Below are positions 10,595 through 46,880 of a stretch of DNA of 64,000 nucleotides, piece after piece. The notes beneath the pieces were generated by a model. The model had not been told where the DNA came from, searched no databases, and saw nothing but the letters and a program-made list of their open reading frames with translations. Source of the DNA: Polytrichum commune (lineage: Eukaryota > Streptophyta > Polytrichopsida > Polytrichales > Polytrichaceae); contig OX485806.1 of NCBI GenBank assembly GCA_950295325.1, positions 30,752,001 to 30,816,000 of the forward strand, written 5' to 3'. Made by a program: the position numbers and the translations under genes. Every line of letters starts with the position of its first letter. Positions within the stretch are counted from its first letter, which is position 1.

Positions 10595-13120
10595 CTTTAG
10601 TTGTTCCCTAAAATGTATTGAAAAAAATCTAATTGACCATAGTTGGTTATAGGTATAGTAAATAGTCATGGACTGGCATGAGCAAAGTGTATAACTATAA
10701 TTATAGTTTTTCATAAGAAAGGACAAAGCCTCATGGTTCTACCGTTTTCTTGTTCATTGTTTCATGAGAAACGATAATATTATATACAACCGTACCTCTT
10801 GTTCATTCAACATAAATGCCTTGAAATAGTTTGTAGCCCAAAGGTTACTTCTCTTAGTTGAACTGACACCGTAATTAGCTTCAAACACTCCAAATTAGTA
10901 TTGTTGAGGTCATTTGAGATGAGGGAAGCTAGCATGTGAGCGACAACATGTGAGTAGTGAGCAATAACATGAGATATATGTTCCCATTTTTAGATTGTGT
11001 TTCATGAAATTAAAATAATTTGGTTATGAATGGAATGCAAGGGGACATTCGACATTCAAAAAGTAAACCCTACTACCGTGGAATCTACATCTTGTCAAGG
11101 GGTTTATTACCATGTAATCAACTTGATATTTGTAGATCTAGAATAAGCCTTAATATATAATTGTAGCTTTGAATGTCAGTAAATGGAACTAGAAGATAGC
11201 TACATTTACCTACATATACTAAAAGTTCATAGAATTTATATATCAACAATGCACTGACATCACGTCCTAATTATATATTATTGATTGTAAGTGCTCAACA
11301 ATAGTTGCAACCCTATGTCATTCAGGTATGATGCACATGACCTTGTTGTAAGTTAAAGTTACAACTATACACATGAAGGTGTTTGGCATCATGTAGTCAA
11401 CCTTGCATGTAGATACATGAATACGTGATACACATGTGTTTTTAGCATAACCCATTGGCATTTCTTTCCCACCGTGGGATATGTTGTAAGTGTTTTACCC
11501 TCCCATTTGTTATTATGCTTTGTAGTATGTGCATTTGGATTATGCCAAGTTTTTGGAGTTGGAACCCAACATTATCTAGATTAAACATCTCATCTCAAGG
11601 TTCCCTTACAAATTAAATACCTCATCTCCACTTCACTTTCATTTTTAAATTTGAGAAAAGCTTTAAGATATTTTCATCCATATGATGTAGTTCATGAGAA
11701 TTTAACCATGCAACATGCGTCATTGAATCTAGGGAAGTGATAGAATCTAGATCTACCAACAGATAATCGTTTAAGTCATAAGGTAAGCAAAAGTATTATC
11801 ATTTTAAAATGACTTTAGGATGACGATTTATATGTCTACTTCTACTTTAATATTCTCAATAGCTATTTCATTTGTAGACAAAAACAAATTATAATAAACA
11901 ATACACCCCCCCCCCTTACATATCAATACCTCTGAAAATCCCATTTTATACACATGTTGTGTAATTTGTGGTGTCCAAAGAACATACTTATTTCTCCCAA
12001 AATAAAAATAAAAATAAAATCATAGCACCTTATTGATTGTACATAATTGGGTGGAGCAATACCCCTCCCATATTTTTGTGAGCCAAACTTTTTACTAAGA
12101 GCCTTAGCTACTAGATTGTAGATTTGTCATGTACGTACTTTGTATAGGTTTAGGTTGGATTGTTGGATGCAAGCACATATGTTCCAAAACAACAAAACTT
12201 GTTAGTCAAAACTAAAATTTGTGACGACTAAAGCGTGCTAAAGATTTACATCTCTTACATTGTCTTAGTAACGATAGGATCAATGAAATTGACCAAAAAT
12301 TGGTGTTATGTATAACAATTGAGTGCAATCAAATCAAGTTCATGCACTTTATACCCTCCCCACGTAAATGACCTCTTTAACGCACATGTATACCAAATAC
12401 ATATTATTTGCCCTCCCTAAGAACCTACCAAGAGCACGTGATCAATTCATTGTTTGTAATAAAAAAAAGCCATAATCTCAACTATTTTTAAAGATTGTAA
12501 AAGCCTTCATTTGTGACCGCACTAGAATACAACCATCAACATCCTCCATTGTATTGTATACATCTAACTCTTGCAAGGTTTTTGTATTGAAATTGCAACC
12601 ATGATTACATGTGTTGTTGGGTTGCAAATCACAACTCTCTTTGGATTGCATATCACAACTATCAAAAAATGTATTGTGCATTATTTGCTATTGCACCCAT
12701 GGCATGATATTGTGGTCTTATCCTTCAAATGTTGGCCATGGTCAAATCCTTCAAATGCTCAAACTTCAAACAAGAGTGACCGCTAAGGATCACAAATGAT
12801 CCATCGTTTTGATACTTATTATATTGAAATGATTGAATCCCTAAACATGTGAAGGTCAATGTCCAAAATTCAAGCATGAATATAATTTTGTTCTTTACTC
12901 GATGCCCAAAATTCCAACAAGATGTTTCCCCAAAAAATAGAAGTCAATTCTCTCATGCAAAATCTAAAAGTTAACATTTTAAGCATCTAAAAGTCAGTTT
13001 TCAATGTAAATTTTAAATACTTAATAGTGGATTACAAAACTTTCCAAAATAGAAGGAATGGATTTGAATGAAAAAAAATGGAAATTATTATTGGTAAGAA
13101 ATTCTTTTCTTTCTCCATTG
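9651..13120. other. AT-rich gene-free stretch
   Basis: No protein-like frame. It contains a (TA)n microsatellite at 10,564-10,587, a 'tgatgcgatgtgatg' imperfect repeat near 10,050 and a C10 run near 11,906. No terminal repeats found. Confidence 0.5.
10564..10587. repeat. (TA)n microsatellite
   Basis: About 12 uninterrupted TA units in AT-rich DNA. Confidence 0.95.
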
Positions 13121-19802: not shown

Positions 19803-22272
19803 TGTAATGGTACGATATTCACAAATGAGCCATAACACGAACTCTAATAACAAATACACACGTGTATGCAACTCAAGATTAAACATGCTAGGATTTCTTT
19901 ACTTCATTCAAACTATTGCTTAGTGCATGTACAAACACACATGTCAAGCATAGTGCTAGGAGCTTAGAGTCGAATCATACATTTAGGCTCTACAATGCCT
20001 TAACATGCTAAGAATGTCACGATTTTGACAAAAGATAGTATTGATGAAACAATGGCACGTGCATGGGATTGCAATGCATAGCTCCAAATATTTGAACTAA
20101 CTATAAATTCTCAAAAGACATAGTTGGTTCACATATTTCCAAGCTTGAGAAATATGTAGTTGAATTTCAACTTATTTTCAGGGTCTTTACCAAAGCTATT
20201 GAAGCGGAAGCCGATTTTATGCAAGATGATAATAGTCCACAAAGATTGAGAGCCTAGATTTACTAATGGGCCTCAAACCCATGCTTCCTATTACAAAATT
20301 GCAGACCTTGGGCAATTGACCAAGTAGCATCACCTAGCTGAATTTTCCGGGCCCCTATTTTGTCACTTAGCTTTAGCTAGCTAGGTTCACAGAGCTTAGG
20401 AGTCTTACTTAGCTTTAGCTAGCCAACTTTTTCGGAACTCTCATTTTCACTCAGCTTCGACTAGCTAAAAAGTTGTGTGACATGCATATTCATTCTAAAC
20501 ATGAGAGAAATCCATTCAAACGAAACCAAACAATATATATTTGGTTATATTGCTCTCAGTTGGCTTTGTATTTTCACGTTGTTGCACAAGGAAATTGAAA
20601 GGCTTTAAATCAACACGTATAGTAGGTTTCCTCACTTTCAACTAGCATTGATGATAGATCATCATCTTCATCATCATCATCACTATCATCATCATTTTCA
20701 TTATCATTGGAATCGTCAATGCCATATGGCAATTCAAGATGAGATGGAATCAAGGAGATTCCGTGACATCCGCTAGATTATTAGGAATTAGGCTCAATGT
20801 TCAGTTTTAAAAACATTGTTGCTTCAACGAGTATGGGTTTGAGAGATGACCGTTTGGGTGCAATGACATCATTCATTCCACCGAGACTGCATTCAAATTC
20901 TAGCTAGCTATTTGGCTAACTTTCCTCACCCGGAATATGGCACTTAGTTTTAGCTAGCTATTATTTTGAGGCATCGAATTCATGCATAGCTTTAGCTAGT
21001 TGGAGCTTTTAGCAAACTAAATAGTTGCCCACTTAGTTCGTTGTCTAAGATTTGCAAGATTGAAATCGGTTTTCTTGAGGTTGCTCATGTCCGGGGACCC
21101 TCATATGATAAATCTCCACAACCATCACCAACAATTGTTGGGGATGGCACCACCAGAGACACAATATGAGAACATGATAGAACTTCATAGATACGTTACA
21201 AAATAAAATACATTTTTTCCAACCCATAGCTTACCTTTACCTAGATGATGTCTTGAACCTTGCCTCAAAGTTCATCAAACAAATAACAATGATCTAGACT
21301 AGCCACATTGGAAAGGCCACTTGCATTTATATATTTTATAATTATTTTTTACAAATTGAAACTTATATTTATAATTCAAAGTCATAATTCATAGGTGTTT
21401 GGAGGCCCATTTCAGGAAGTTGGTACAACAATAAGACAACCATGCCAACAAGCCACTCCCACACCCATTGCATCTAATGAGCACATAAATGATAACCTCC
21501 CTAACCAAGCCAACTTGGAACCCCTACCTCAAACACACCCATGCCTTCCATCTCAAAATGTTTGTTGTGTCCATGTGCTTATTGTGCTCAAAGTGTTGGT
21601 ATACGTGGTTTCTTTTCTTCATCTCAAGTGGAGACACATTTACTGTTGCACGGGTCCACAACAATGAATGTAATAAATTTATTTTTTATTTTTACCAATG
21701 TTAGTCCTTCTCTCTGCCTAAAACTTAATATGCCTTTCACAAGATTTAACTACACTCAAACAATTCCTCTCCTCTAGTAACCCTTGGTGCTTCTTTGACT
21801 CTCTCTACCACAAGGTTATTCTTCCTCTCGATCAATAGTGGTTCCTTCCTTCATGATTTATCTAACTTGTTTGTGCCTACTATAGGGTTCATTCACTCAA
21901 AGTCTTTCTCTTGAAGTGTTGGCAGACTATGGTGCGATAACGCCAACCTCAGCTAATAGTTGTACGCGTGCTCTCAAATTTCAACAGTTCATATAACCCA
22001 TGCTCAAAGATCACCATAAGCTTTATCACAAAGTTGCAATCCCACAATCCCCAACAATTGTTAATTGGTTCACATCAATTAATTTAATTATCCTCATTGC
22101 ACAATCTCTATGTTGAGGGAGACAAATTAGCTAAGTAGAACAAGATGCTCAAGCAACCTAAACAAAATGCATGCATACATGGGCTTGCCTTGCCTCTTTA
22201 TTTGAGGCGGGAAACATGTCACTATAACCAACTACGAGCTTTTGAACTTGTAAGTATAATTCTAATCGCTTT
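19803..22272. other. Gene-free stretch
   Basis: No gene recognised. A (ATC)n-rich run lies at about 20,658-20,710; its inverse would encode an Asp-rich tract. Repeated 'ttagctttagctagc' words occur at 20.35-21.0 kb. Both may be traces of old coding or tandem repeats. Confidence 0.4.
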
Positions 22273-22377
22273 GTCATGTAAATAGCGAAGGTGTGTTACT
22301 GCAACTCGAGTACCAACCACCACTAATAAATACAACTAAAACATGGCAAAGACACACATAAACAAAACACCTCCACA
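22273..22377 (-). mobile_element. Truncated 3' LTR of the methyltransferase element
   Basis: The minus-strand sequence from 22,377 starts TGTGGAGGTGTTTTG right after a purine tract (ctaaggggggg). It matches the start of the 5' LTR at 30,096 (TGTGGAGATGTGTTG) for about 105 bp, down to 'tatttacatga', where similarity stops. The remainder of the LTR is absent or replaced. Confidence 0.65.
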
Positions 22378-22457
22378 TGCCCCCCCTTAGCTAACTACGG
22401 AGTCCTGCCAAGCAGCTAGGACCAATGCCAATCGAAAGGGCATGGATAATGAAGAAT
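22378..22457 (-). repeat. 3' internal end with polypurine tract
   Basis: Minus-strand sequence 'attcttcattatccatgccc', 'cctagctgcttggcag' and then a G-rich purine tract before the TG of the LTR. The same block occurs at 30,097-30,179, directly upstream of the 5' LTR, where a normal single element would have host DNA. Confidence 0.65.
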
Positions 22458-22812
22458 TGCTCCGCAACCAACAAGTGTGGTGTATGTCATTCCAAGAAAT
22501 TGTAAGCTAGGTGCAGTGTGAGCCCCATCCTTAATCGCCTCTGATGTTTGGCCATCAAATTCCAAAGAATTAAATATGTCGTTTCACGTTTGATTGCGTC
22601 TCTAAACTATAACTCATCATTTTCCATTTAGGCATGCATAACACGGTGAAAGCCACATATGATCATTGAATATGACTGGTGGAAGCACTAGGTACCGAAA
22701 GATCCTCAACAGAGAGGACAACTTCACTGTCCAGATCGGAGAGAAGTCAAGGGTGGTCTCAAGCATGCCATGAGCCAACCACGTTGACACTGATCACACA
22801 AGAGCATAGTAG

Positions 22813-24020
22813 CTATTCATTTTTTCTCCCCACATATAAAATATGGAAAATACTCTGGCACGATGGCCAGTTCAGGATGAATTGTACCCTCAATGGGGCA
22901 CAATTTTTGGAATGCTCACAACATTTCCTGCCATCCTTGTCTTCCAACAACAACAAACCACTCGACAACACCTCCTTCACTTGAACGATAGTGCACCCCG
23001 CCCTGGCATCCAATGTCGTGGACGCCTCACGTTGGAGATAGACATAATCCCCTTGCCGGAATCTCCGCAACTGAGGTCGGTAAACACCACTGCGAATGCG
23101 TGCATAACGCAATGTGTCACGGTGTTGAGCAATGGACGAATTTTCCATGGCCATAGGCATGGCCCTTTGGAAGAATTGAGCCCATTCCTGCAAACACTCT
23201 GCCCAAATGTTTGGGTCAACCAAATCCACAACAGAAGCTAGTTTTTCCCGAATAGAACTCGGGAGTATAGGCTTACGTCCATACAACAACTGATACGGGT
23301 TGTAAGACGCCAATGAGGCTTGCCTACTAAATAAATAGCCCATAGCAATCTAAGGCAACATAAGGTTCCAATCCTGGTGGCTTCGCCAGAGTAATTCATA
23401 CTTCCTCAAGCCAAACTTGGTTGTCTGAACAACCTGATCAACCAAGCCATCCACCTCTAGATGATCTCACGAGGTGGTACGGTGATCTATAAGGGCCTTA
23501 GTGCACAATTCCTCAAAAACACCGAGGAACTCCCTCCTTTGGTCTGTCAATTCCTCAGCCAGTGCTCCAAAACATGCCAACACACAATCTAAAAAGGTTG
23601 CCGCAGCAAAATCTACAGAGTTTTGGGGTACAACGACAAACTCAATTCACTTTCTAAAATCCTCCACCATCACCACCGTGTACTGTGATGCATGTGGTGT
23701 GACAACCAATGGCCCTGCAAAGTCTAATAACTAACGGTAGCCCAGTCCCATGATAAGTAAGGGTTGTAATTGAGGTGACAAGGTGTTGAAGCTAGACATG
23801 ACCCGATCACAAACTTCACACCTCCTGACATAAGAAACTACCTGCTGATACATGCCAGTCCACCAATATTGGCCGTCCAACATTGAATGTGTTTTACGTA
23901 TGCCAAATTGGTCAGGTTCCTCGCGTACTTGTCACACCAAGGAGGCCCTCCAATCTAGTCTAGGGACAATACGCCTTGTCCCATTTGACCACAATCAAAA
24001 TAACAAACCATTCTCCCAAC
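22813..24020 (-). pseudogene. Integrase region of the methyltransferase element
   Basis: Retroviral-type integrase. Readable stretches are 'WIEFVVVPQNSVDFAAATFL', 'ELTDQRREFLGVFEELCTK' (second catalytic Asp region), a 'DGLVDQVVQTTKFGLRK' segment and, in an open frame of 176 codons (22,813-23,343), the core end plus C-terminal domain ('NPYQLLYGRKP', 'RFRQGDYVYLQRE'). In the third catalytic region the expected Glu is Asp. Several stops lie between the stretches. This is the last pol domain before the polypurine tract, in the expected order. Confidence 0.75.
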
Positions 24021-24369
24021 CGAATCTTATTATTTGATGTCCAATCCGATCCATTTCCATCACCGAGATAGACAAGGGAAAGGTTCTATGCTGAAGCTTA
24101 TGCAATACGGGCATATCCTCCCATATATACACAATAACTTGAGGTCGATCAGTCTCATCATCCGAGCCCTGTATCGGAACCTCAAGAGCAGTGCCAGAAA
24201 ACAAAGTGAGGTAAGCAGCCGCATGCCAACCTGGAACCGCCTCTCGATCACAATTCCCATGCCAACTAGTCCCGGTCAAATCCTCATCCAAAGGACTTGG
24301 ATTGCGTGAAAGTCCATCTACATCCAAGTTGGTAATTCCGGCATGGTGTATCACCTCAAAGTCGTACTC

Positions 24370-25661
24370 CTAGAGTAATTAAGCCCACATGGCGAACTTG
24401 CCAGAGAACTTATTTGACTCCATGAGCCAACGTCAAGGTTGATGGTTAGTTACCAAAGTAAAGCGCTGACCATAGAGGTATGGCCGGAAATGGGCAATAG
24501 CCCACACCGCCGCCAAAACTTTTCCTTCATAGGATGAATAATTAGCCTCCGTAGTGTTGTTGCTTCGCGAAGTATAAGCAACAACATACTTCTGGCCATA
24601 GTCATTCTTCTGAGTGAGAACTACTCCCAAAGCCAATGAACTCCAGTTCGTATGCAATTGGAAGAATTTGGAGACATCTGGATGTTGAAGCATTGGAACC
24701 GCATCTAGTCTATGCTTCAATGTCTCAAATGCTTGTTGTTGCTCACGACCCCAAGTCCAAGGTTGGTCTTTGCTCGTGAGAATGATAAGAGGCTTGGCAA
24801 TCAAGCTAAAGTTCTTGATGAATCGACGGTAGTAATTCGCCAAGCCCAACAAAGCACGAAGTCTCGGAACATTGAACGGTGCTAAAATCTTCTACAAAGC
24901 GTCCACCTTAGTTTGTTACACCCCAATACCTCATGGAAAAATCATATGACCTACATATGCTAAGCGCAATTTCCACCGCCACAACTGTTAAAAAACGGCT
25001 TGCAGATGCCCCACATGCTCTTGTGTTGTCTTGCTGAAGATGATCACTTCATCAATGTAACATTGAGCAAAGGGCAAGCCAGAGAGGACTTGGTCCAATA
25101 CTCTCTGAAATTCAACAGGTGCATTTTTTAGGCCAAATGGCAGAAATTTCCAATGGTAAAATTGATCTTTTCCATTCTGATCAACTCCTCAGTATGCAGT
25201 TTTTACCCGATCTCCCGCAAGTAATGGGAGATGGTGATAGCCGGATCTCAAGTCCAAGGTGCTAAAGACTCAAGAAAATCCGATGGCATCGAACAACTCC
25301 TCTGGAATTGGCATGGGATACAAATCCGACTTGGTCTTGCGGTTAACTAGACGGTAGTCCCCGCAGATCCGCTCTTCCGTCCAATTGCCAAAGATATTTT
25401 TCTTTGATGGCATAACTGTAGCACACGCATATTCCATGTTGGAGAGTTTAATAAGCCTTGTTGCCAAGAGCTTTTGGCAACGAGCTTGGACACCAATTCT
25501 CTCAAGAACACTAAGTCTGGAAGGTCTCCAAAAAATAGGATGGTCGTCCTTCCGCTGAATGTGGATGGGTTTTCCTTTATAGCCTTCAACATTTTAAAAG
25601 CTAAAAGCAAAACACCCACGGTATGAGCGAATGAACACTCGTACCTTCCGTGCCTCGGCAC
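24370..25661 (-). pseudogene. Reverse transcriptase and RNase H of the methyltransferase element
   Basis: RT motifs in order: 'VMPSKKNIFGNWTEERICGD' (25,270-25,467), 'FSTLDLRSGYHHLPL'-like, 'PFGLKNAPVEFQRV', then YIDE at about 25,048-25,059 where active Ty3 enzymes have YIDD. The connection and RNase H follow in a 139-codon open frame (24,433-24,852): 'ANYYRRFIKNFSLIAKPL', 'QLHTNWSSLALG', 'AYTSRSNNTTEANYSSYE', 'FTLVTNHQP'. The RNase H positions usually Asp in 'HTDWS' and 'VTDHQ' are both Asn. Enzymatically inactive as it stands. Motifs seen; inactivity follows from the lost residues and stops. Confidence 0.85.
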
Positions 25662-25810
25662 TAGTGAGATGAAGGCCTAATTCTACTGGCCAATCATTAA
25701 ACTTTGTGGTCTCCCTCTCTACCAAAGGGAAACCACTTGGTGCTGGCACATACTCTAACTACTACTAAGAGGAGGGGGCATTAATCATGCCCCCAACCTC
25801 AGTGCCCCCC

Positions 25811-26870
25811 TTACCAAAGTTCTCTGCCCCCCAGAAACAACAATTGATCACCATGATGCCGTTGTAATGTAAGGCATAAACCAATAGTCCACACCATGGT
25901 ATTAAGATCTATGGTTTGGCCCCACACGAAGTGTCGTTGGCCCTTAGACATGCGAAGAGTTGATGTGGTGCTCGTGCAAAATCCCATGGCATGTTCTCGT
26001 TCGTCAGCCAATGATTCGGTATGGCTTTTGGTATGATCATCCCACACCATGTCCAACCCCCGATCACGGAATGCGAATGATTGTGGGAAGGTCATAAAGG
26101 TGGAAAAAATCCTCTATGGTGCCCCCACTTTGGTGACCAATGCCAATGGGGGTAAATCATCTCGAACAACTGGCAAAGAAGTCCGGTGTGGGTCCAAGAT
26201 GCCATCCATCTTTTTATCAATTGGTGGAGGCACTGTAGAAAATGTTGCGGGTAAAATGGATGAAGATGCGAGGTTGGTCCATAGCCACAGAAGCCAGTGG
26301 GAATAAGAACCAAGGCCTGCGGCATCCACAACAATGGGATCATCAAGGTGTTGACAAACATAATGCTTGCCTTCTAACACCTTGTCCCGAGAATCTCCCA
26401 ATAGATGTACATTCTCGAATATATACCCTAGGGGTAAGATTGGTGGGCATACCACCACTGCATGAGGCGGATGAGGTCCCAAAATATACTAGATCTGGGA
26501 TCGTCCAACCCTTGGCATGCTTTAGCATGTGAGTGGCCCTGGCAGGGCCATCCCGCTATCACCAAATTCACGGGACCCAACCTTCGTAAGTCTGCATCGT
26601 TGATAAGTGTAACAGTACAAAGGAGATGTGCAAAATACCCATGAATGGTAGTTGGATCCAACTGTTGTGGGTACAACAACATCAACTGGTGGATATGGTG
26701 ATGAGCCATACGAGTGGCCGCTTGACTGTCATCCACATAAACATACTGGCAAACCGTGAGACCAACCTCTAATACAACCGCCAATCCTATACCAATGCCC
26801 TAAAATAATTCCACCAAAGTAATCCTCTCGTCTAGCGGACACCATGAAATGGTATGTGCCAACACCTATT
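25811..26870 (-). pseudogene. C5 cytosine-DNA methyltransferase domain inside a Ty3/gypsy pol
   Basis: Family reaction: transfer of a methyl group from S-adenosylmethionine to C5 of cytosine. Motifs read in the normal, unpermuted order. Motif I: 'ITLVELF' + stop (26,800-26,802) + 'GIGIGLAVVLEVGL'. Motif IV: 'LVIAGWPCQGHS' with the catalytic Cys at about 26,542, then 'GLDDPRSSIFWDLIRL'. Motif VI: 'GYIFENV'. Motif VIII: 'DAAGLGSYSHWLLWLWTNL', with Trp where an Arg is expected. Then a target-recognition-like segment, motif IX 'ADEREHAMGF' and motif X 'GQTIDLNTMVWTIGLCL'. The span is about 330 codons, a normal catalytic-domain size. One frameshift separates motif IV from VI and an in-frame stop lies between VIII and IX. 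The unpermuted order excludes plant DRM. It lies between protease and RT, so it was part of the polyprotein. Confidence 0.9.
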
Positions 26871-27176
26871 AGGTATTACGTATGACTGGTGTTGTAGAAC
26901 CGAGAGAGAGGACAACCTCCTCACACCTTCGGAATAGGTTGGCGGAATCGCACCAGGCATGTAGCAATGTATCCGCAATAGCACTGCATCCAAAATCCAT
27001 GGATAATGATGCTATGGTCGTAGCCACCGCGAATGCCACATGAATAAGTTCCCTAAGGCCGTCTCCAGCCGACCAATCTGGTTGGATCCAAGCCTCCTTA
27101 GTCTAGTTGTTCAAACAAAAACCAAAGGGGTAGAGTGGTTGCTAACCAACGAAAATATTGTAGTTGGTTGCATCTA

Positions 27177-27440
27177 TCACTGCACACCTGAGAAGAAGAG
27201 ATGCGGTGGATCTCCAGGGTTCACGCGGAAACTAAGCTGCAATGACTCCCAAATGTAACCAGTGGCCCGCTCCACGTGGCCAATAGAGGTGACGATGGTA
27301 AATAAGCAAGCAACCAAGTCGTCGGGCGTCAAGCGTAATTCGTGGGCAAGTCTTTTGCCGATCATAACTAGTTGTGCCCCCGAATCCATCATCACACACT
27401 GGGGTGCAACCCGAATAGGATTGGCCCCAACCTAATTGAC
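27177..27440 (-). pseudogene. Aspartic protease of the methyltransferase element
   Basis: The active-site motif reads 'CVMMDSGAQLVMIGKRLAHE' (D-S-G), followed by 'FTIVTSIGHVERATGY' as expected of a retropepsin flap region. It lies between gag and the methyltransferase, the usual place for the protease of a Ty3 element. The DSG-containing frame stays open from 27,395 to 27,177, but the joins on both sides are frameshifted. Confidence 0.7.
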
Positions 27441-28349
27441 CACCAAAATATTGGTTCATTCACCACATACACGACGCCGGGTCGAATGTTGCGGAGCTCG
27501 CGAGCAAGATGAGCAGCTGCATCACACAAATAAGTTGCTCCCGCGGATTCCGGTGAGTCATAAGATGTAGTTTGGTCCTTGCCATTTGAGGTGTGTGTGT
27601 CAAAACACGCAATGGCCTCCGTTGCAAGCCTTGCTCGTTGTTTGGCCGTTTCCTCGGGATCCTCAGTAACCAAGAGGTCTGCGGTGGTTTAAGTCACAGT
27701 GAGAAAAAACAAGAATGCATTGTCTTCTAAAATCCTACTTGCTAGGTGGAAAACCTTAGCCGGTTAGATGTCAGGTGATAACCACTCCATGGCTATAAAC
27801 AAAGGTGTGAACAATATCTTGGATGCCAATGTGTGCACCATGTCGGTTGCCAGATTCAAAGCCTTCATGCTCGAATTTTGACCAATGATAGCTTGGATAT
27901 CATCTACCAATCCAAAAGGCAATGGCAGACGTGCCTAACCAATCTGATCCACACGAACATAGTGTCGAGCTCGTAAGGTCTCTACAGGCTCCATTGTGGT
28001 CGAAGGTGTGGCTTGTGACACAGATTGAGCACGTGTCATAACTACCAGACTCACCACCTCCCCCAAAACCCCGAACATATAATAATTTGGAGTGAACAAA
28101 CCAGCCTTAGCTTCGAATGAAGCCAGTGATCCCAATATTTGGCCAGATGATGGCAAAGTCTTGAACCTCTCCTCTAAGCTTTGCGTCTAATGTTTTTTCT
28201 CGTTCGAATGAAGGGTTTTTCTATGGATGGAAGGCGAAGAAATTTTCCACCAAGTAATTGTTCCGCCCAAAGTGGGCATATTTCATCTGCTTCGATAGAT
28301 ATTTATCACCCTCATTTGTTGAATTGTTAGCGGAAACAATTGGCTTTTG

Positions 28350-29516
28350 TTTCGCATGATTCGCGGTGTGGACTTATCTTTGTTTCAAATGCCAATCATT
28401 CTTAGCGTGCCCCAACTGTCCAAAAGACCAACAATGTAAGGGATTGTCCCCCTTTGCTTCTACCAATCATGCAGTCACAACTGGAATCTTCCGAGATTTG
28501 CTAGAATCCACTAGTACAGATAGCAAGTCAGTGACATCGTGCTGACACAAAACACGATTACACTGCTCCCCAATGGCGAATGCCTCTACAAATGTTGTCA
28601 GCCACCGTAATCCATGATGATCATAGACAACGCTAAGTCAATGAGACGTTTGTCAATCTTTGATAAAAATACCTTCATCAACTGGTTCCCCGCGAAAACA
28701 CCTCCATATTCCTTGGTAAATATCGTCAACCTCGTAAATATGGTACGAGGTGTGTCGTTTTCCCTCCCGCATGAAGTCTAGGACCCGCTACATTTGATCT
28801 CGACGAAAACCTCCATATTCCTCTTCCAGAATTTTTGCAGAGGATCAAAATCTGGCAAAGGCCTATAGAAATTAATATCGTCTGCGTAACCTAGCCATAA
28901 CGGGAGAGTGGAAAGACCATGTTAGACGTACTTGTGGATGTAGAAGCTAGAACCTTCTCTTTAGATTCACTAGGGAAACGCCCCTCTACATTCACCACAA
29001 AGATGTCCTCTGCTAGGTTCGTCTTAATCATAGGAGCGGCCAATGAACTAGAAGTCGCGCCTTCCTTGAATGCGGACACGAACTCCACCAACATCTCCGC
29101 ATACCGCTTCACTTGGTGAAGCTCCATCCAATGAGCATCTCGCCACTGTTCATATGTATGGAGCCCTTCGTATTCTAGAAATTGGGGCAAAAGCTCGAAC
29201 ACATATCAACCATTAAAACTAGTATTGCGTTGTCGTTTCTCCCTCATCCATGTCCTAAACTAAATTTTCGAATCTTGTAGAAAAATGGACTCTGCTCGAC
29301 CGAAAATCCGGTTTTAGATTCCTCATTGCGCATCCTCTTCCATGTCGTCAAATGTGCCTACCCAAAGAACATGAGACTGAATGATAGTCTTTCATGCCGA
29401 AGTAGGTTAAAAAACTCGTCGAATGCTACCACTGATTCAACGTCTGAGAGGTTAGAGGATCGATCTTCCGATGCCTCTGAAAATGGAGAACGATAATATT
29501 GGTTCCGAGTTGTAAC
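28350..29516 (-). pseudogene. gag region of the methyltransferase element
   Basis: A likely start ATG lies at about 29,516 ('MVTTRNQYYRSPFSE'), just after the decayed primer site. A 103-codon open stretch (28,891-29,202) contains 'EYEGLHTYEQWRDAHWMELH', typical of the helical gag core. Near 28,400-28,450 a degraded CCHC knuckle reads 'HCWSFGQLGHAKNDWHLK', where the second and last Cys have become Phe and Trp. Stops interrupt the frame. Role in the intact element: capsid and nucleocapsid. Confidence 0.65.
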
Positions 29517-29551
29517 CATAAACCCACAATGGATTCGATCACTATAACCAA

Positions 29552-30096
29552 TAATCTAAATTAATGTAATATTAAAATAAAAGATCAAAATGTAGAAGAT
29601 AACTTGCAGTTCCAACCACCACCAATCTTATAATATGTTGGTCTGCTAGTCAATCAGAAGGAAAAGAATCAAACCCTTACAAGAGCTCTAATTTTCTCTT
29701 CAAATGTACATAATAAGTCAAGTTATCTCTCACTCCATCACATGAGAATCCAAGAGTATTAGTAAAGGAATAATAACTCAAGATTTATTACAATAACATA
29801 CAATCTTCACCTCATTCAAATTTTCTCCACACACTCACTCACAGAGCTTAACTTGGCAAGAATGCCAAGCCGAGGAGGAGGCTCCTCATTTAGGAGCATC
29901 TCTCCAACTTCTAAGATTCATCCATCCAAATCTACATGAATGAACTCTCACGGATAAGGTGCGGCCGACAAGACCGCATACCATGACAATTATCATGTAA
30001 ATAGCGATCGTGTGTCACTCCAGCTTGAATACCAAACACCACTAACCAATACAACTAGAACATGATAAAAACACACATAAACAACACATCTCCACA
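29552..30096 (-). mobile_element. 5' LTR of the methyltransferase element
   Basis: It begins TGTGGAGATG on the minus strand right after a purine tract (aagagggggggta), and ends close to a sequence resembling a mutated 'tggtatcagagc' primer site (ttggttatagtgatcgaatcc) shortly before the gag ATG. Length is about 545 bp. The 3' end of the LTR is approximate because the terminal CA has decayed. Confidence 0.6.
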
Positions 30097-30306
30097 TACC
30101 CCCCCTCTTAGCTGACTATGAAGTCTTCTGCCAAGCAGCTAGGACCAATGCCAATCTAAAGGGCATGGATAATGAAGAATGTCAAGCCAAGGAGGAGGCT
30201 CCTCACTTAGGAGCATCTCTCCAACTTCTAAGATTCATCCATCCAAATCTAAATGAATGAAATCCCACGGATAAGGTGCCGCCAATGACGCCGCATACCG
30301 TGACAA
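29861..30306 (-). repeat. 129-bp LTR segment repeated directly around the 5' LTR start
   Basis: The segment 29,861-29,989 (inside the 5' LTR) recurs at 30,178-30,306, with shared words such as 'gaggaggaggctcctca' and 'aggagcatctctccaacttc'. Between the copies lies the 3' internal end plus polypurine tract (30,097-30,179). In element orientation the order is LTR middle, 3' internal end, LTR, gag. This suggests two copies in tandem sharing one LTR, with the upstream copy almost entirely deleted. Confidence 0.65.
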
Positions 30307-31929: not shown

Positions 31930-34900
31930 GCTCGGGATTTATAATATTATATGGGTGGGAGGGGGATGGGTGTTTGTTTGTTTTCAAGTTTCCTTTTGTT
32001 TAGGATGAGATATGTGAGGTATTTGATGGCATTTTGGTGTATGATTTTCATGAGGGTTTTAATGGTTGGTTTGGGGACTTTTAAATTGGTGACTTTACTA
32101 ATGGAATGTTCGTATATGGCTCCTCTAACTCCTCTTGTGATGGTAATAAGTGGGTTGGTTTGCCATCCATTGTGTTCGTAGGGTGTTGATTAGGGGGTCG
32201 TATTTGTTGTGTTTGTGTGTGAGGGCTTGGTCGGGAATCTATCATGGCAATATGTGAATTCAATGAGTTGGATAGAAATTGCGGAGGTGGGTGCTAATGG
32301 GGTTGAGTGGAGTTCGGGGCGCCAATAATGCAAAGAAAGTATGGTCGTAGTTTGGCTTGGCATGTACATTTGAGAAGCCAATCTGGGATTGTTTGTTCGG
32401 TGGGTTTGCTATGAAGGTTTTCCGGCAGTGGTTAATGTGAAGAAATGGGTGTCTTTGTTGAGATGCAATGTTTGGGTTATGAGGTGTACCACTTTACTGT
32501 GTCTTGTTATTCTTAGGTTTTTTATGTGTGGGTGTTCACATATGGATAAGAGGTGGTGCCACGTGTCTTTGTCATTGTGGTGGCAGAGTTTGCAATTGGG
32601 GTTTTGGTGTGTGAGTGGCCAAAATATGTTTTTCTAGTGATTACCCATGTATTGTGCGAATCTGAATTATAATGTTTGGGTGATTTGGGCGTTGGTTACG
32701 TTGTCATTTTTCCAAAAATGATTGGAGAGTTTTTGGTTTATTTGAGTAATTGATAGTCATTTATCCACATATGGGAATTTGGCTTTGGCTATTACAGTTT
32801 CTCGAGTTTTGTGTTCTTTTGTTATGAATGTGTGGAGGTTGCGGATGGCTCCATTGTGTGTGGTTGTTGGGCAGTTGACTAGCCAATATGGAGTGGTGTG
32901 GGCTGTGTGGATATGTGGAGTGGTGGTTGGTTTTTCTTTAAGTGTTCCTTCGTTGGCTAGAGTGTCAGCCATTTCATTTCCGGTAATTCTTGAGTGTGCA
33001 CGGACTTTATGGATGTGTATCATGTGTGGGGTCATGTTTATTTGGTGTATGATCTCTGCTATTAGTAGTTTGTCGGGGTGGTGATATTGTGATGTTGGGT
33101 GTCGGACGTGGTTGTTTATTAAGAATATAATATTTAGGCTATAACAAGCACGGTAAAGTGGACAACTCCTGATCCCTACCTAGTGTTAAGTGAAAGTGAT
33201 TCAATTTTATGTACTAACTTTGAATTTTGTGAAGAAATAAACCATAGACATTTAAAAAACATCTTGATCTACAAAGCCAAGCAATTTATGATGACAAAAA
33301 GAATTCCAATAAAAGTCTACCTATTTTAGAAGATGGTGCAAGTGGCGTGCAAGTAGGTGATATTGAATAAGTGACTGTCTAAAATTTGTTTAAAATATGA
33401 TAAAATCACATTAAATTGATGGTTTTTTACAAAGTTTTGTGGTGATGCCCTCAAGTAGATAATGAATTCAAGGAACATAAAAAAATTTCTAACTTCAAAA
33501 TAGTTAAGGTCATGAAATCTACATCCAAAACCAAACTCGACCATTTGTTTTTGAGCATCACTTTTGATGCTAAGTATTGAAGACCTCAACTTGATATTCT
33601 ACATTTGAGTATTTAACACAACAATAGAGGTCATCATAAAAAAAAATCCAATTTAAATAACTCTTTGCTACTACTTTTAGGCCTTTGACCAAAAACATTA
33701 TGGTTTTAGTATACCAGAGCACTTTTTTGGTCCACTTTACCATGCTTGCACCCATTTGTAAATATGTGCATATCTAGTTGGATGGTTTGTGTAAGTTTTA
33801 TGCCGATGAGTATTGCATTACGTTTTTCTCTTAGGATGTTTTGGTATCCTGGTAGTCTCTCAACTATTTGTGTGTTGTTGTTGGGGCTATATACTCATGA
33901 TCCGGATGTATTGCTTTCTATGTGACCTTCATAGTTTTTGGTGGGTGGGATAAATGAGCCATCTGTGTATATGCATTTTAGTGGGTGATATTTGAGGGGA
34001 TGGATATGGTTATATTTTTCTGGTAGGGGTGTCGTGGGGGTGTTTGTTGGGGTGGTGGTATTTATTTTGGGGGCGTCTTTCCATGTTTTGAAATTTTTTA
34101 TTGTGGTAGTGGAGGGGGGTGGGTCTAATGGGATGTGTGTCAATGTGTATGTTTATTGTATTTCTAAGTGTTTGTTGTAATTCATTTGGTGTTTGTAGGT
34201 TTGGTGTGAAATCAGTTTGGTTATGTATGCAAATGTTAGAGATGGCTCTGTGCGTGTGTAGTATTTTGGCCACTTTGGTGTGGGATCGTAGTGTATGGCA
34301 TAGGGTGGGATGGTGGCTAGGATGTGTATGTCAACTTTATTGATGATTGATAGTTGTTGTGGTGTCCAATCATTGTGGTTGACTATTAGGATGGTAACTA
34401 TGTGGGCGTCTTCTTTGGCCGCCATCCTAGGCCAATGAATGGTTTCTAGGGTCGTGGTGTGGTCTTTGGGGTATGCTTGGCTTATTCCTTCCCATTTGGA
34501 GGATTTCGCGTGGCCTAGGGAGCCGAATATTATGTCACAATTGTGAGGTGAGTTGTATTGTGTGAGTTGGATGGGGCGAGTGAGTGAGGAGGAGTAGTAT
34601 GAGTGTGTGATTTTGAAGGAGTTTATTAGTAATTTGGTGATTTATGTGTGTAGTGTTTGATGGTTGTTGTTGGGTTGTATTTGTTTTGGTTTTTTCTTGG
34701 GGAGTATAGTTATGTATCTTTGTATCAGCTAAAGTAGTTCGGTTTCGAAGTCTTGTGGTGGAGGTTGTAGGAAGTTGGTTAGGTGTGGGAGGTTGTTGTG
34801 GGAGTAGCAGTGCCATAGCCAGTGGAGTCTTTCGGTAGTAATGGTGGCCATGTATTTTCCGTTTTGGTCGTATATGTGGGATTCTGCATCTTGTATTTGT

Positions 34901-36485: not shown

Positions 36486-36490
36486 GTAAC
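36486..36490. repeat. Target site duplication GTAAC (left)
   Basis: GTAAC directly precedes the TGTCG terminus of the 5' LTR. The same five bases follow the 3' LTR at 43,259-43,263. Confidence 0.95.
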
Positions 36491-37464
36491 TGTCGTGCAC
36501 CTCTCCATGAGGAGTGGCCGAAACACCATGGGCACAAGGGGGACCCCGGAGTGACACCCGGGACTTGTGGCGCCGTTGGTGAGAGGGCCCAAGTGATCCT
36601 AGTGTGGGTGAGGGCCCCGGGCGTTGGGAACGCCTCCCACCCACGGAGACTAGGATGCACAAGGGTAAGGCCATAAGCTATGCGTAGCTCATGGCGTGGT
36701 GATTCTAGAATGCTCAAGATCACCTCAATCGGAGGTGTGAGCTAGGAGTTATGGCCATTTGAGTGGGGTGCTGTCCCGGGACAGCGCCCTGGTACAGCAG
36801 TACCTGGGAGTGATTCCCGGGACTGCCAAGGTTCAAACAGGCATAACTTCCTCAAGACTTGCTCAAATGGAGCAAGTGAGGAGTCCATCGGCATCTACGT
36901 GAAGCGTAGATGAAGATGGAGTGGTTGGTTGTTATGATCAGACATCATACAAGGAAGTTATGATGGTCTGAAGCTGCTGGGGGGGTTCTAGGCCCAGCAG
37001 CTAAAGGAAAATGTCCAGTTGGCCCCAACTCTTGGTAGAGAGACAAGAGGTTGGTTGACGGTGGGGTAGGGGCCCCGCGTGAAGTCCTAGAGGCTTATAT
37101 GGGTGAGGTGGTGTGGCCTCACCCACCCGAGGCCGAACGGCACGGCCTCCATGGGCTTTGGCCCATTGTGAGGCCATAGTTGCCTAGTATGGTTCGGGTT
37201 GTTGTAGTGTTGCTCCGGCAACGCGATGATCAGCATGGGATTGGACTTCCATGGATGGAAGTCCACATCTAGGAATGGGTTACCGATTAAGGGGTGAGTC
37301 CCGAAAGCAAAGTAGGAGGGTTGGTTCCCCTCCTTTGAAATATATGGTCCGGGGTAAGAGGAGCTAACCATTAGCATGGCGGTATGCGAAGGGTTAGCGC
37401 TCGTAACCTTTGCTAGAATGGAAAATTGGCAACATTGTCAAGGGGGCTAGCAAGGGTTGCGACA
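36491..37464 (+). mobile_element. 5' LTR
   Basis: Begins TGTCGTGCACCTCTCC and ends GGGTTGCGACA. It contains several perfect inverted stems: CTGTCCCGGGACAG, CATCTACG/CGTAGATG, AGCTGCTGGG/CCCAGCAGCT and GGACTTCCA/TGGAAGTCC. Two bases separate its end from the primer site. Confidence 0.95.
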
Positions 37465-42275: not shown

Positions 42276-42287
42276 GGTGGGGGTGAG
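42276..42287 (+). other. Polypurine tract
   Basis: TGGTGGGGGTGAG-like purine-rich sequence directly before the TG of the 3' LTR, where plus-strand synthesis would be primed. Confidence 0.7.
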
Positions 42288-43258
42288 TGTCGCGCACCTC
42301 TCCATGAGGAGTGGCCGAAACACCATGGGCACAAGGGGGACCCCGGAGTGACACCCGGGACTTGTGGCGCCGTTGGTGAGAGGGCCCAAGTGATCCTAGT
42401 GTGGGTGAGGGCCCCGGGCGTTGGGAACGCCTCCCACCCACGGAGACTAGGATGCACAAGGGTAAGGCCATAAGCTATGCGTAGCTCATGGCGTGGTGAT
42501 TCTAGAATGCTCAAGATCACCTCAATCGGAGGTGTGAGCTAGGAGTTATGGCCATTTGAGTGGGGTGCTGTCCCGGGACAGCGCCCTGGTACAGCAGTAC
42601 CTGGGAGTGATTCCCGGGACTGCCAAGGTTCAAACAGGCATAACTTCCTCAAGACTTGCTCAAATGGAGCAAGTGAGGAGTCCATCGGCATCTACGTGAA
42701 GCGTAGATGAAGATGGAGTGGTTGGTTGTTATGATCAGACATCATACAAGGAAGTTATGATGGTCTGAAGCTGCTGGGGGGGTTCTAGGCCCAGCAGCTA
42801 AAGGAAAATGTCCAGTTGGCCCCAACTCTTGGTAGAGAGACAAGAGGTTGGTTGACGGTGGGGTAGGGGCCCCGCGTGAAGTCCTAGAGGCTTATATGGG
42901 TGAGGTGGTGTGGCCTCACCCACCCGAGGCCGAACGGCACGGCCTCCATGGGCTTTGGCCCATTGTGAGGCCATAGTTGCCTAGTATGGTTCGGGTTGTT
43001 GTAGTGTTGCTCCGGCAACGCGATGATCAGCATGGGATTGGACTTCCATGGATGGAAGTCCACATCTAGGAATGGGTTACCGATTAAGGGGTGAGTCCCG
43101 AAAGCAAAGTAGGAGGGTTGGTTCCCCTCCTTTGAAATATATGGTCCGGGGTAAGAGGAGCTAACCATTAGCATGGCGGTATGCGAATTAGCGCTCGTAA
43201 CCTTTGCTAGAATGGAAAATTGGCAACATTGTCAAGGGGGCTAGCAAGGGTTGCGACA
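42288..43258 (+). mobile_element. 3' LTR
   Basis: A copy of the 5' LTR over its whole length, with C instead of T at position 6 and a 3-bp loss (gaagggtta to gaatta) near 43,187. It ends CGACA and is followed by GTAAC. Confidence 0.95.
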
Positions 43259-43650: not shown

Positions 43651-46600
43651 AGGGGGGAAATAGTGAATGAGCTTGGTTTAGTGCCTCTTTGATGATTTTA
43701 GGCGCATGTTTGTATGAGTTTCGGAATTCTTCTAGGGTTAGTATGACAATAGTTTCATAGTTTTGTATTTGTATTAGGTTGTAATACCATATGTATATAA
43801 TTTATCTAGGTATTTATGAGATTTTTCTTTTGCATTATTTGTGAGGTGTGTGTATTTCGGGTTAGATTGCCATGCTTGTTCTAGTGGGGTCCTTTTGATT
43901 GGAAATGTACGGTTTGTAGTAGTGGTGTGTATTTCAAATTCTCTTTCTAGTAGAAACAATGTTATGGCTATGAGCGATCTTGTGTAGGCCTGTTGTTTGA
44001 GTTTGGGGAGGTGTAATGATCCTCCATATTTGGTTAGGCCTTAGTAAACAGTGCCTAATTATCATGGGTCGTTAAGGCCTTGTATTAGTTGTTGGCCTAT
44101 GCAATTTATGTAGTCAAAGAGGAGTGAGGTCATGTTTATGCCAAAGTCTTTGTGTGGGAGGTCTGTAAGGATGTTTGCCGTATTTTTGGGTATGTTGCAT
44201 ATATCTTTATTCAATTTGCTAATTATTTTGTCTAGCTTTTTAATGTCGGGTTTGGAGAATAGGACGGCGTAGTAGGTGTATGCGATGCGGAATTTAATGA
44301 TTGTGTTTAAGATTTTGAATTTTTTGTTTGAGGCTGGTGGGGGCTAAGGTTAGTAGTTTGCTTTGATGTTTGGTTTTTTGGATTGGTTTCTTTTTGTAGG
44401 TTTTATTTAAGTTATGGCATTAGGTGGATACCTAGGTATGTGTATGGTTCATTTTGTGTGAGGGTGGGGAAGTTTTTGGATTTGTATGTGATGTTTTGTG
44501 ATTGAATATAGGCTTCAAATGTATTTGGTTTGAGCTTGGATTTGTTGGGGCATCATGTGATGGCGCATTTTGATAGGTTGAGGTCCATGTATGACCATTC
44601 CCTAAACTTTTGAAGTTTGGATATTTGTGGTTGGATGTGTTGTATGTTGTTAGTGATTATTGCTAGGTCATCTATATATGTTGTGGTGGTACATGTAGCA
44701 AAGGAAGTGTTGAAGTGGTAGCCCATGTTGTCTTGTTCCAACTATCTTAGAAGGGTTATAAAAACATGATAAATAAACATGGACCAAGGGTATCTCCTTG
44801 TAAGGTTCCACGGCTAATTTTTATTGGGGATGTTGTTCTGAAGTGGTTGCTGGTGAAAGAGGTAGTAGAGTTTTTGTGTATGTTGCCAATGATTTCAACT
44901 ATGTCTAGAGGGAAGCGTAGGTATTTTCACGAGGGTTAGTAGTCTTGCGTGGTCAATGGAGCCAAAGGTATTTTTGAAGTCGATGTATGTGAGGTACATG
45001 TCTTTGTTTGTGAGTTGCGCGTTTTCGAGGGTTGTTATAATCATTCGTATTTGTCTAGAGGTATTACATTGTGGTCAGAGACCTTCTTGGCTAAGTGTAG
45101 TAGTCTGTGTTGTTCTCTGTAGCTTGCGAGAAGGGCAGTTATGGTGTTGGTGTATAGTTTATATATTGCAATTGCTCGCGCAACTGGCTTGTAGTTGGTG
45201 AGATGTATTGGGTCGTCTTTTTTATGTAGTAGAATGGTTTTACTATATTTCCAGTAGGTTGGGTATTCACATTGTTTGTAGCAGTGTTGGAAAAATAAGA
45301 ATAACATGTTGTGGCATTGGGGTGGTAGTGTTTTGATTATATTGTTGGGAATGTTGTTAGGTCTAGGAGTTTTTCCTCTAGTCAATCATTTGAGGCAGTT
45401 GTCATAAACTTCTAAAGTGAATTGGGTGTGTATTTGTGTGTATTGTGGGCCTATTTTATCTAGGATGAAGTCATTATGTGTGTGCCAGGGGTATTTACGT
45501 ACTGCACACATGCATGTGCTTGGATGGTTTGTGGGGTCATCACATATGAGTGTTTTTCTTTGAAACGATGTTTGTTGGGTGTGATTTATTTCATTGGCTA
45601 TATCCAGGGGTTGTGTTAGGATGTGGCCTTGTAAGTTTTGTAGGTAGTCAAGTGAGTTGTAGGTTGTTGGATGGAATATTTTTCTGGATGGTTTTGGGTT
45701 TAGTGTTTAATAATGCTCTATACTTGGTGATGGCTATTTTGCAATTTGTTGCAGTTTATCTAGTTATGATTTTGTGGGATTTTTTTTTAGCGTTTTTGCC
45801 TATGTTGGCTAGGTCTTCAATCCATTGTTTATGCTCTGTAAGGTTTGTGGGGAGGGGTGGGATGGTGACATTTTTAATGAGTTGTAAAGCACTTATATTT
45901 GGGTTGTTGTGGAGATTTGTGTGGGAATTTTGGCATACAACTCGGATTGCTTTGCGAGTGGTGTGGTGTGTTGCTATTTGAAGTTTCCATAGTTTTTGTT
46001 GTTTTACGGGTAGGAATCCTTCTCTCAGGTTTTTGCTCTATTGGGTAGCGGGGGTGGGGGTTTTGTCATGCAAGTTTGTTCGATGTATTTACTGAGAGAC
46101 TTGATGATTTCTTGGAATTTACATTGAGCGTCTTCCCATTATGTGGGGGTAAGTTGATCATTTTGTAGCATTTTTGTAAGGCATGTTATATTTAGGCTTT
46201 GTGTCTCTAGGAAGATTGTTTGGAGTTTTTGAAGGTTGGTGGGGGGGGGGGGGGTATGGGGTATGTGATCCGTGGGGCACTCCGGGAAATTTTTGCTCCT
46301 TTGGTGATTATGCTATTGGGGGCTAGTTGTAGTTGAATTGGGTAGTGGCATGAGTTTTGGTTCAAATTGGTTATTATGTGACATTGCAAGTTGTTGTGGG
46401 GGGTATTAGTATAGAAACCATCTATGAGGCTTGTTGAGGTGTACTTGTGGCCACCTTGTCTTGTGAAGTTTTCTTGATTATTAATCGTGTTGAGGCCTAA
46501 ATTATTTGTGAATTGGGCCCAATCATAATTATTGTGGTTAGGGGGGGATAGTATGCCATTGGATGATCTGCCTTTGAATAATATGTCCCGGTTAAAGTCT

Positions 46601-46880
46601 CCTGCTAGAATGGTTTGATGTTTGGGGTGTTGATTTATAGTGTTTGGATTTGTTTTTGGATTTCTAGTACGAGGTGCACGTTCTGAGGGTGGGTTGGCAT
46701 ATACATGTTTAAGATGAGTATGGGTGTTATGGGTTTGTTGTTGATTATAATGGCTTGGAGGTATGGTGATATTATGTCGGGGGTTGGAATTTTGGTAATG
46801 TTTTCATTGGTGGGTATGGATTTAGGTATCATTGTTAATATGCCTCCTTTGGCAGAGGTGGTGTTCACAAGTCCTTAAAG
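43651..46880 (-). pseudogene. LINE, 5' half: endonuclease and reverse transcriptase (decayed)
   Basis: In minus-strand order: APE-type endonuclease pieces 'ILILNMYMPTHPQNVH' (46,635-46,868) and 'AGDFNRDILFKG' (~46,570-46,605), then 'SLIDGFY'. RT follows with 'PRPNNIPNNIIKTLPPQCHN' (45,041-45,385), 'TILLHKKDDPIHLTNYKPVA' and the active-site box 'TYIDDLAIIT' (~44,670). A thumb-like region extends to 43,774. The endonuclease N-terminus is absent, so the copy is 5'-truncated at about 46,880, common for LINEs. Stops and frameshifts are many. The 3' half lies at 31.93-35.39 kb beyond the nested insert. Confidence 0.8.

Follow-up and report, generated by a model that had tools for sequence, protein, structure and literature searches.

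A moss Ty3/gypsy-type retrotransposon family that carries its own C5 DNA methyltransferase, recognized from a decayed copy

Introduction

The window analyzed here, a stretch of 64,000 nucleotides from the Polytrichum commune assembly, contains a dead, old and broken relic of a Ty3/gypsy-type retrotransposon in which a C5 cytosine DNA methyltransferase (DNMT) domain sits between a retroviral protease (PR) and the reverse transcriptase (RT), all on the minus strand. We regard the identity of the element as a DNMT-carrying Ty3/gypsy-type retrotransposon as practically certain. Judged from its other genomic copies, the family is large, high in copy number and recently active in this moss. With moderate confidence, we favor the explanation that the element captured a DNMT3-related enzyme, which would be made together with Gag and PR and would methylate the element's own cDNA before insertion.

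Methylation is the mark plants use for silencing jumping genes, and a DNMT carried by such an element matters for this reason. Some mosses are amenable to genetics, and among the liverworts Marchantia serves as a model; it is therefore testable why an element carries the silencing mark of its host. The family extends DNMT-bearing LTR retrotransposons from the published algal cases to mosses and, by database matches, to liverworts, at a very high copy number.

Results

A decayed copy in the window

The initial annotation, made from the letters alone, had placed a Ty3/gypsy element with its own C5 methyltransferase at 25811..26870. Domains and genomic copies support this assignment, and the interval is nearly exact when compared with the DNMT domain mapped by alignment to an open genomic copy (1027 of 1029 bases; Table 1). 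The proposed check with the Pfam DNA_methylase profile (PF00145) returned a significant match for the ORF piece 26428-26799 on the minus strand (E=6.4e-7, 29.5 bits against a cut-off of 22), while the ORF pieces 26114-26488 and 25811-26113 of the DNMT region, each tested alone, gave no Pfam match. Three-frame translation of the minus strand places the motif I region and motif IV (AGWPCQGHS) in one frame, and motifs VI (FENV), VIII and IX (ADEREHAMGF) with an X-like stretch in another. The motifs thus stand in the unpermuted order that had been read between PR and RT on one strand, here spread across two frames with stops. Upstream of the DNMT, the protease piece 27177-27431 matches Asp_protease_2 at E=9e-4, under the Pfam cut-off; downstream, the RNase H ORF piece 24433-24891 matches at E=1.9e-31, and the RT was located by mapping from the open copy.

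We call the window copy dead on three grounds. Of its 35 gaps relative to the open copy, 33 are not multiples of three and shift the frame; motif I contains a stop; and motif VIII reads YSHWLLWLW, compared with YAHRPRWIW in 27 of 37 other copies. Transitions across 22272-30305, with polarity set without a control element by a single young copy (L035) standing in for the ancestor, amount to 25.8% at CG, 25.2% at CHG, 13.5% at CHH and 7.3% at A/T sites. CG and CHG transitions are therefore about equal and about twice those at CHH, the footprint expected of CG plus CHG methylation. This excess fits ordinary host methylation and is uninformative on self-methylation.

Elsewhere in the window, positions 7446-8840 (minus strand) hold an intronless F-box/LRR host gene that is 99% identical to a JGI protein. 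Its identity is 76% to Physcomitrium and 74% to Ceratodon, compared with 60–65% to liverworts, and by this similarity the host, which the initial annotation had taken for a land plant, is a moss. Direct repeats of 300 bases at 36486-36785 and 42283-42582, 99% identical and 5.8 kb apart, are likely the ends of another LTR element. ORF pieces at 32757-33179, 34153-34641 and 46207-46803 (minus strand) resemble, by eye, relics of non-LTR retrotransposons (RNase H-like, endonuclease-like). An Rfam search of the window gave no matches.

Table 1. Features of the window element, in window coordinates.
Feature	Position	Strand	Basis and remarks
Whole retrotransposon copy, terminus to terminus, decayed	22272..30305	-	5' end 30305, 3' end 22272; alignment to open copy and end inspection
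Candidate 4-bp target duplications AAGT / AAGC	flanking 22272..30305		one mismatch in four letters
Partial repeat A (initial ~131 of its 333 bases)	30175..30305	-	
~75 bases of internal 3' end, followed by repeats B and A in that order; rearranged, at the element's 5' side	29656..30176	-	match to copy positions 12023-12538
ORF1 relic: gag, CCHC zinc knuckle, protease, DNMT	25765..29519	-	open-copy feature mapping
CCHC zinc knuckle	28436-28385	-	open-copy feature mapping
Retropepsin-like protease core (MMDSGAQ)	27308..27395	-	Pfam match, translation, mapping
DNMT3-related C5 cytosine methyltransferase domain with broken frame; motif order I-X unpermuted	25838..26865	-	PF00145 E=6.4e-7; mapping; motifs
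Site of the conserved in-frame UAG between DNMT and RT	25762..25764	-	two further TAG flank; CARYYA context lost
Reverse transcriptase (RVT_1) relic	24940..25380	-	mapping, 441/477 bases
RNase H	24454..24753	-	PF17919 E=1.9e-31; mapping
Integrase zinc-binding domain (H2C2) relic	23794..23958	-	mapping
Integrase core (rve, DDE type) relic	23458..23739	-	mapping
PHD-finger relic, C-terminal end of integrase ORF	22709..22837	-	PF00628 E=6.2e-11 in open copy L035; mapping
Polypurine tract	22378..22393	-	
Repeat B (106-107 bases), element's 3' end	22272..22377	-	usual following A2-B2 absent here

The family in the host genome

The host assembly comprises 407.8 Mb, of which the seven largest contigs together hold ∼406.1 Mb; this number of large contigs would be in keeping with a moss of n=7. 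We searched it with the DNMT domain of copy L003 (best 118 places of 596 first-look candidates) and with that of L041, from a divergent subfamily (best 118 of 591 candidates, five of them shared with the L003 set). Together, these queries define at least 231 distinct DNMT places, and by row count a frame of more than 1,300 codons is undisturbed in at least two dozen of them.

Taken alone, the window could be read as holding a host methyltransferase fragment that landed by chance between the PR and RT of one relic, since its reading frames are disrupted and the domain scores only in part. Among the best 150 of 1413 candidate places for the RT query, 122 have a DNMT on the same strand no more than 2.6 kb upstream. 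Nine of the remaining 28 were fetched: eight have a whole or partial DNMT directly upstream, and in L123 the DNMT is displaced ∼3 kb further upstream of the RT. DNMT sequence thus lies upstream in 131 of 131 resolved matches, with 19 of the 150 outside this count, and none of the 131 joins PR directly to RT, the arrangement that the initial annotation had named as evidence for a chance neighbor. The PR-DNMT-RT order recurs in these copies in one open frame and is also found in other bryophytes and in algae, while the host search yielded only two genes with a cellular-looking DNMT3-type motif I–IV block, both of them DRMs whose motif IV is SPCNN. The chance reading is refuted by the genomic copies, and we give it practically no weight.

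Selection was measured as Nei-Gojobori omega over pairs with dS > 0.05 from 30–32 copies. Median omega is 0.24 for the DNMT (32 copies, 398 pairs), 0.16 for RT, 0.32 for PR and 0.25 for the gag end; between subfamilies, the DNMT value is 0.11 at saturated dS (2.5). The DNMT domain is thus under purifying selection. These figures include neutral decay after insertion, and constraint on active copies should therefore be stronger than they indicate. That omega is higher for the DNMT than for the RT counts against methylation of the element's own cDNA as the explanation for the domain.

A DNMT3-related domain

The DNMT of L003 matches PF00145 at E=9.9e-14. Against solved structures its best match is DNMT3A (7.5e-12), followed by DRM (5e-8) and HhaI (1e-4), and a profile of 20 relatives gives the same order against the PDB (DNMT3A 4e-25, DRM 1e-10, HhaI 2e-8, DNMT2 3e-7). 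No DNMT1 or CMT chains are among the matches listed in the structure searches. For fold comparison, we used an AlphaFold model of P0029, a metagenomic relative whose domain shares 50% identity with that of L003. The model has a mean pLDDT of 75.7, with most of the core blocks >85, and its best 50 Foldseek matches are all DNMT3. PCQ is conserved in 36 of 37 moss copies and ENV in 34 of 37. Motif IV is PCQG in the element as opposed to PCN in DNMT3 and in the two host DRM genes, a difference that counts against the favored explanation. Based on the structure and profile matches, and on PCQ versus the SPCNN of the host genes, the domain is DNMT3-related and distinct from host DRM.

We also considered whether a host DNMT3 exon had been misread as the element domain. 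A search with a fish DNMT3B domain returned element copies and two DRM-like places, with no clear cellular DNMT3, although exon splitting could hide one, and this candidate was rejected.

Named relatives of the element protein come from Marchantia, Calypogeia, Closterium, Sphagnum troendelagicum, S. fallax and Riccia sorocarpa. A tree of 24 domains joins the host copies to two environmental sequences (support 97/97) and the liverworts to Sphagnum (100/100), and sets Closterium apart (86/85); its deep branching is not resolved. Motif IV is ECQ instead of PCQ in the Closterium protein P0043, and a crude pattern count over the retrieved proteins found WECQG 10 times. A scan of viral contigs with the DNMT profile gave 66 loci, with best segment identities of 22–49%.

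A second architecture is found in P0117 and P0062, in which the DNMT follows RT-RNase H and precedes the integrase (in P0117: RT 119-244, RNase H 310-440, DNMT 631-965, H2C2 1090, rve 1165, PHD 1468). P0049, P0052, P0054 and P0061 were assigned to it by integrase position. The second architecture indicates that the DNMT either moved within pol or was captured twice.

A conserved UAG after the methyltransferase

Open copies encode, in one frame, ORF1 (∼1,364–1,386 codons), a stop and ORF2 (∼1,047 codons), in the order Gag with CCHC, protease, DNMT, UAG, RT, RNase H, DDE integrase and PHD finger. Each of the 50 distinct copies examined has UAG as the stop directly after the DNMT (36 from 42 rows that include six repeat views, and 14 further). 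The six bases that follow are CAAUUA in 36 copies, CAAUCA in 10 and CAGUUA in 2, so that 48 of 50 copies have CARYYA; the two exceptions are both UAAUUA and share the same single C-to-T change. No other stop position occurs in more than 2 of ∼36 copies. Tobacco mosaic virus and other plant viruses require this CARYYA context for readthrough (PMC4132726). Additionally, codons 1–115 of ORF2, between the UAG and the usual first AUG, are under purifying selection (median omega 0.25), which points to translation beyond the stop.

The UAG is, with high probability, a readthrough site. A methionine at ORF2 codon 117, just before the RT domain, is present in 27 of 31 copies and would suit a separate start, with the RT made by reinitiation, by splicing or from a separate mRNA. 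We consider this very unlikely, since it leaves unexplained both the constraint on the 115 codons before that methionine and a CARYYA context kept in three spellings and lost only through one identical change.

Because the UAG lies after the DNMT, the enzyme falls on the Gag side, in a predicted Gag-PR-DNMT product. The best 20 database relatives end 62–140 residues past the DNMT and contain no RT, some possibly cut by a contig end. In at least 11 other database relatives the DNMT runs into the RT in one protein, and the stop is therefore not universal.

Split repeats with a DDE integrase

PR, RT, RNase H and integrase follow one another on one strand as in Ty3/gypsy, with PR matches that are weak and under the Pfam cut-off. 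The C-terminus of the integrase and the ends of the element depart from that type. Where Ty3/gypsy chromoviruses have a chromodomain, the integrase ORF ends in a PHD finger (PF00628) in both copies scanned (L035, E=6.2e-11; L041, E=3e-11), and a PHD finger is also present in the relatives P0052 and P0117. Instead of two equal outer terminal repeats, there is A alone at the 5' end and B1-A2-B2 at the 3' end: the two copies examined in full run from one target duplication through A1 (333 bases), the internal region, the polypurine tract, B1 (107 bases), A2 and B2 to the other target duplication. In each of these two copies A1 is identical to A2, over 333 bases in one and 334 in the other, and both copies therefore inserted recently. 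All 40 scored genome matches (best 40 of 1064 candidates) have B1-A2-B2 as one contiguous block, and the B/A junction, GACAGCTGTC, is a perfect palindrome in both subfamilies.

Perfect 4-bp target duplications flank four of six copies (TACA, GATG, GAAT and TGTC), and in the other two, one of them the window copy, the duplications match in three of four letters. Together with the rve integrase, these duplications set the element apart from DIRS/PAT elements, which have a tyrosine recombinase and no target duplication; no tyrosine recombinase domain is among the Pfam matches.

If the replicative LTR is B-A, the structure would equal a two-LTR circle opened at the B/A junction and not at the outer ends. 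The window copy, with the order A (131 bases), 75 bases of internal end, B, A, internal region, B, may derive from an imprecisely closed circle opened at the other B/A junction, or from a local rearrangement. Two solo A-internal-B copies with target duplications (L036 and L046) look like one-LTR circles; recombination between B1 and B2 would yield the same form, so they are no proof of a circular intermediate.

Discussion

We propose the following sequence of events for the favored explanation. Most ribosomes would stop at the UAG and release Gag-PR-DNMT, while a minority would read through UAG-CARYYA and add RT and integrase. Given the position of the stop, the methyltransferase is expected in the particle at Gag-like amounts, that is, as a stoichiometric particle component. 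There, or on a nuclear circular form, it would add de novo cytosine methylation to new double-stranded cDNA, and the new copy would arrive pre-marked like resident silent DNA. The PHD finger, predicted to be a chromatin reader carried by the element itself, would direct the integrase toward chromatin in a particular histone state. From the pairing of split repeats with a DDE integrase, we predict that the substrate for integration is unusual. The idea that cDNA is the main substrate of the DNMT is the more tentative part, to which we give slightly less than even weight. De novo CG methylation by retrotransposon DNMTs is reported in related systems (PMC5890265), which is consistent with a putative activity here. 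The DNMT of SymbioLINE-Dnmt, as tested in yeast in the same account, gave no DNA methylation, and activity of the moss enzyme therefore cannot be assumed.

The initial annotation had proposed camouflage of the cDNA, control of copy number and marking of insertion sites, which are candidate roles. Two other functions were weighed against methylation of the element's own cDNA. The enzyme could act in trans, methylating sibling copies or the host genome and so reducing copy number or damage to the host. In favor of this are the size of the family with its many decayed copies, the potential abundance of an enzyme made at Gag level, and the suggestion by de Mendoza et al. that transposition might be slowed (PMC5890265); such self-limitation would, however, need selection on the element while young copies keep inserting, and we consider it unlikely. 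Alternatively, the domain may be kept for nucleic-acid binding, RNA methylation or particle structure. Its place in the Gag-side product would suit this reading, as would the failure of the LINE-borne DNMT to methylate DNA in yeast (PMC5890265) and the replacement of PCQ by ECQ in some relatives, such as P0043 of Closterium. However, the moss copies conserve PCQ, ENV and motifs VIII–X, which are what catalysis needs, and the nearest solved structures are DNA and not RNA methyltransferases; a function other than DNA methylation thus seems quite unlikely.

A fuller version of our proposal, possible but doubtful, is that the element carries a complete epigenetic kit, with a DNMT3-like writer made at Gag level before a readthrough stop and a PHD reader on its integrase. 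The DDE integrase would insert a circularly permuted form, circular DNA cut inside the repeat at the palindromic B/A junction (GACAGCTGTC). Before inserting, the element would methylate its cDNA, whether circular or linear, and it would select chromatin to match. The lineage would be an ancient one among streptophytes, its sublineages differing in which of two places in pol holds the DNMT.

Compared with cellular DNMT3A and DNMT3B, the element domain shares the fold, the motif order and the best sequence match, and differs in having PCQG where those enzymes have SPCN. It is embedded between PR and RT, with no ADD or PWWP domain seen adjoining.

DNMT-bearing Gypsy-type elements are an already known kind, as described for Klebsormidium nitens (de Mendoza et al. 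2018, PMC5890265), and the initial annotation was correct in recalling methyltransferases captured by retrotransposons of dinoflagellates and charophyte algae. DNMT3 in retrotransposons "in streptophytes and dinoflagellates" is also mentioned in PMC12344493. In the open-access literature searched, we found no description of such an element in a land plant; nor did we find described there such a high copy number, a readthrough stop that follows the DNMT, an integrase ending in a PHD finger, or the combination of split direct repeats with a DDE integrase and 4-bp target duplications.

The closest known system is KnitGypsy-Dnmt3 of K. nitens, a Gypsy-type element with a DNMT3, DIRS-like repeats, Ka/Ks <0.2 and conserved key residues (PMC5890265). 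The comparison is by description, K. nitens being absent from the named protein matches. In both elements, the polyprotein joins LTR Gypsy-type domains to a DNMT3-related domain that is unpermuted, and both have a DIRS-like repeat arrangement alongside Gypsy domains (Fig. 4 legend of PMC5890265). The DNMT is under purifying selection in each, the moss value of 0.24 within the main subfamily being slightly above the <0.2 of the alga. They differ in abundance, with "fewer copies" stated for K. nitens and at least 231 DNMT places in the moss, a land plant. The parts of PMC5890265 drawn on here make no mention of a UAG-CARYYA stop, a PHD finger or 4-bp target duplications.

SymbioDIRS-Dnmt3 of dinoflagellates, for which de novo CG methylation was shown, and SymbioLINE-Dnmt likewise place C5 DNMTs on retrotransposons (PMC5890265). 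These are DIRS and LINE elements, whereas the moss element has a DDE integrase and a retropepsin. Lastly, split direct repeats are a feature of the PAT/Ngaro-type tyrosine-recombinase retrotransposons. The moss element differs from them in its DDE integrase (rve) and target duplications, with no tyrosine recombinase among its Pfam matches, and resembles them in its split direct repeats, arranged as A1-internal-B1-A2-B2.
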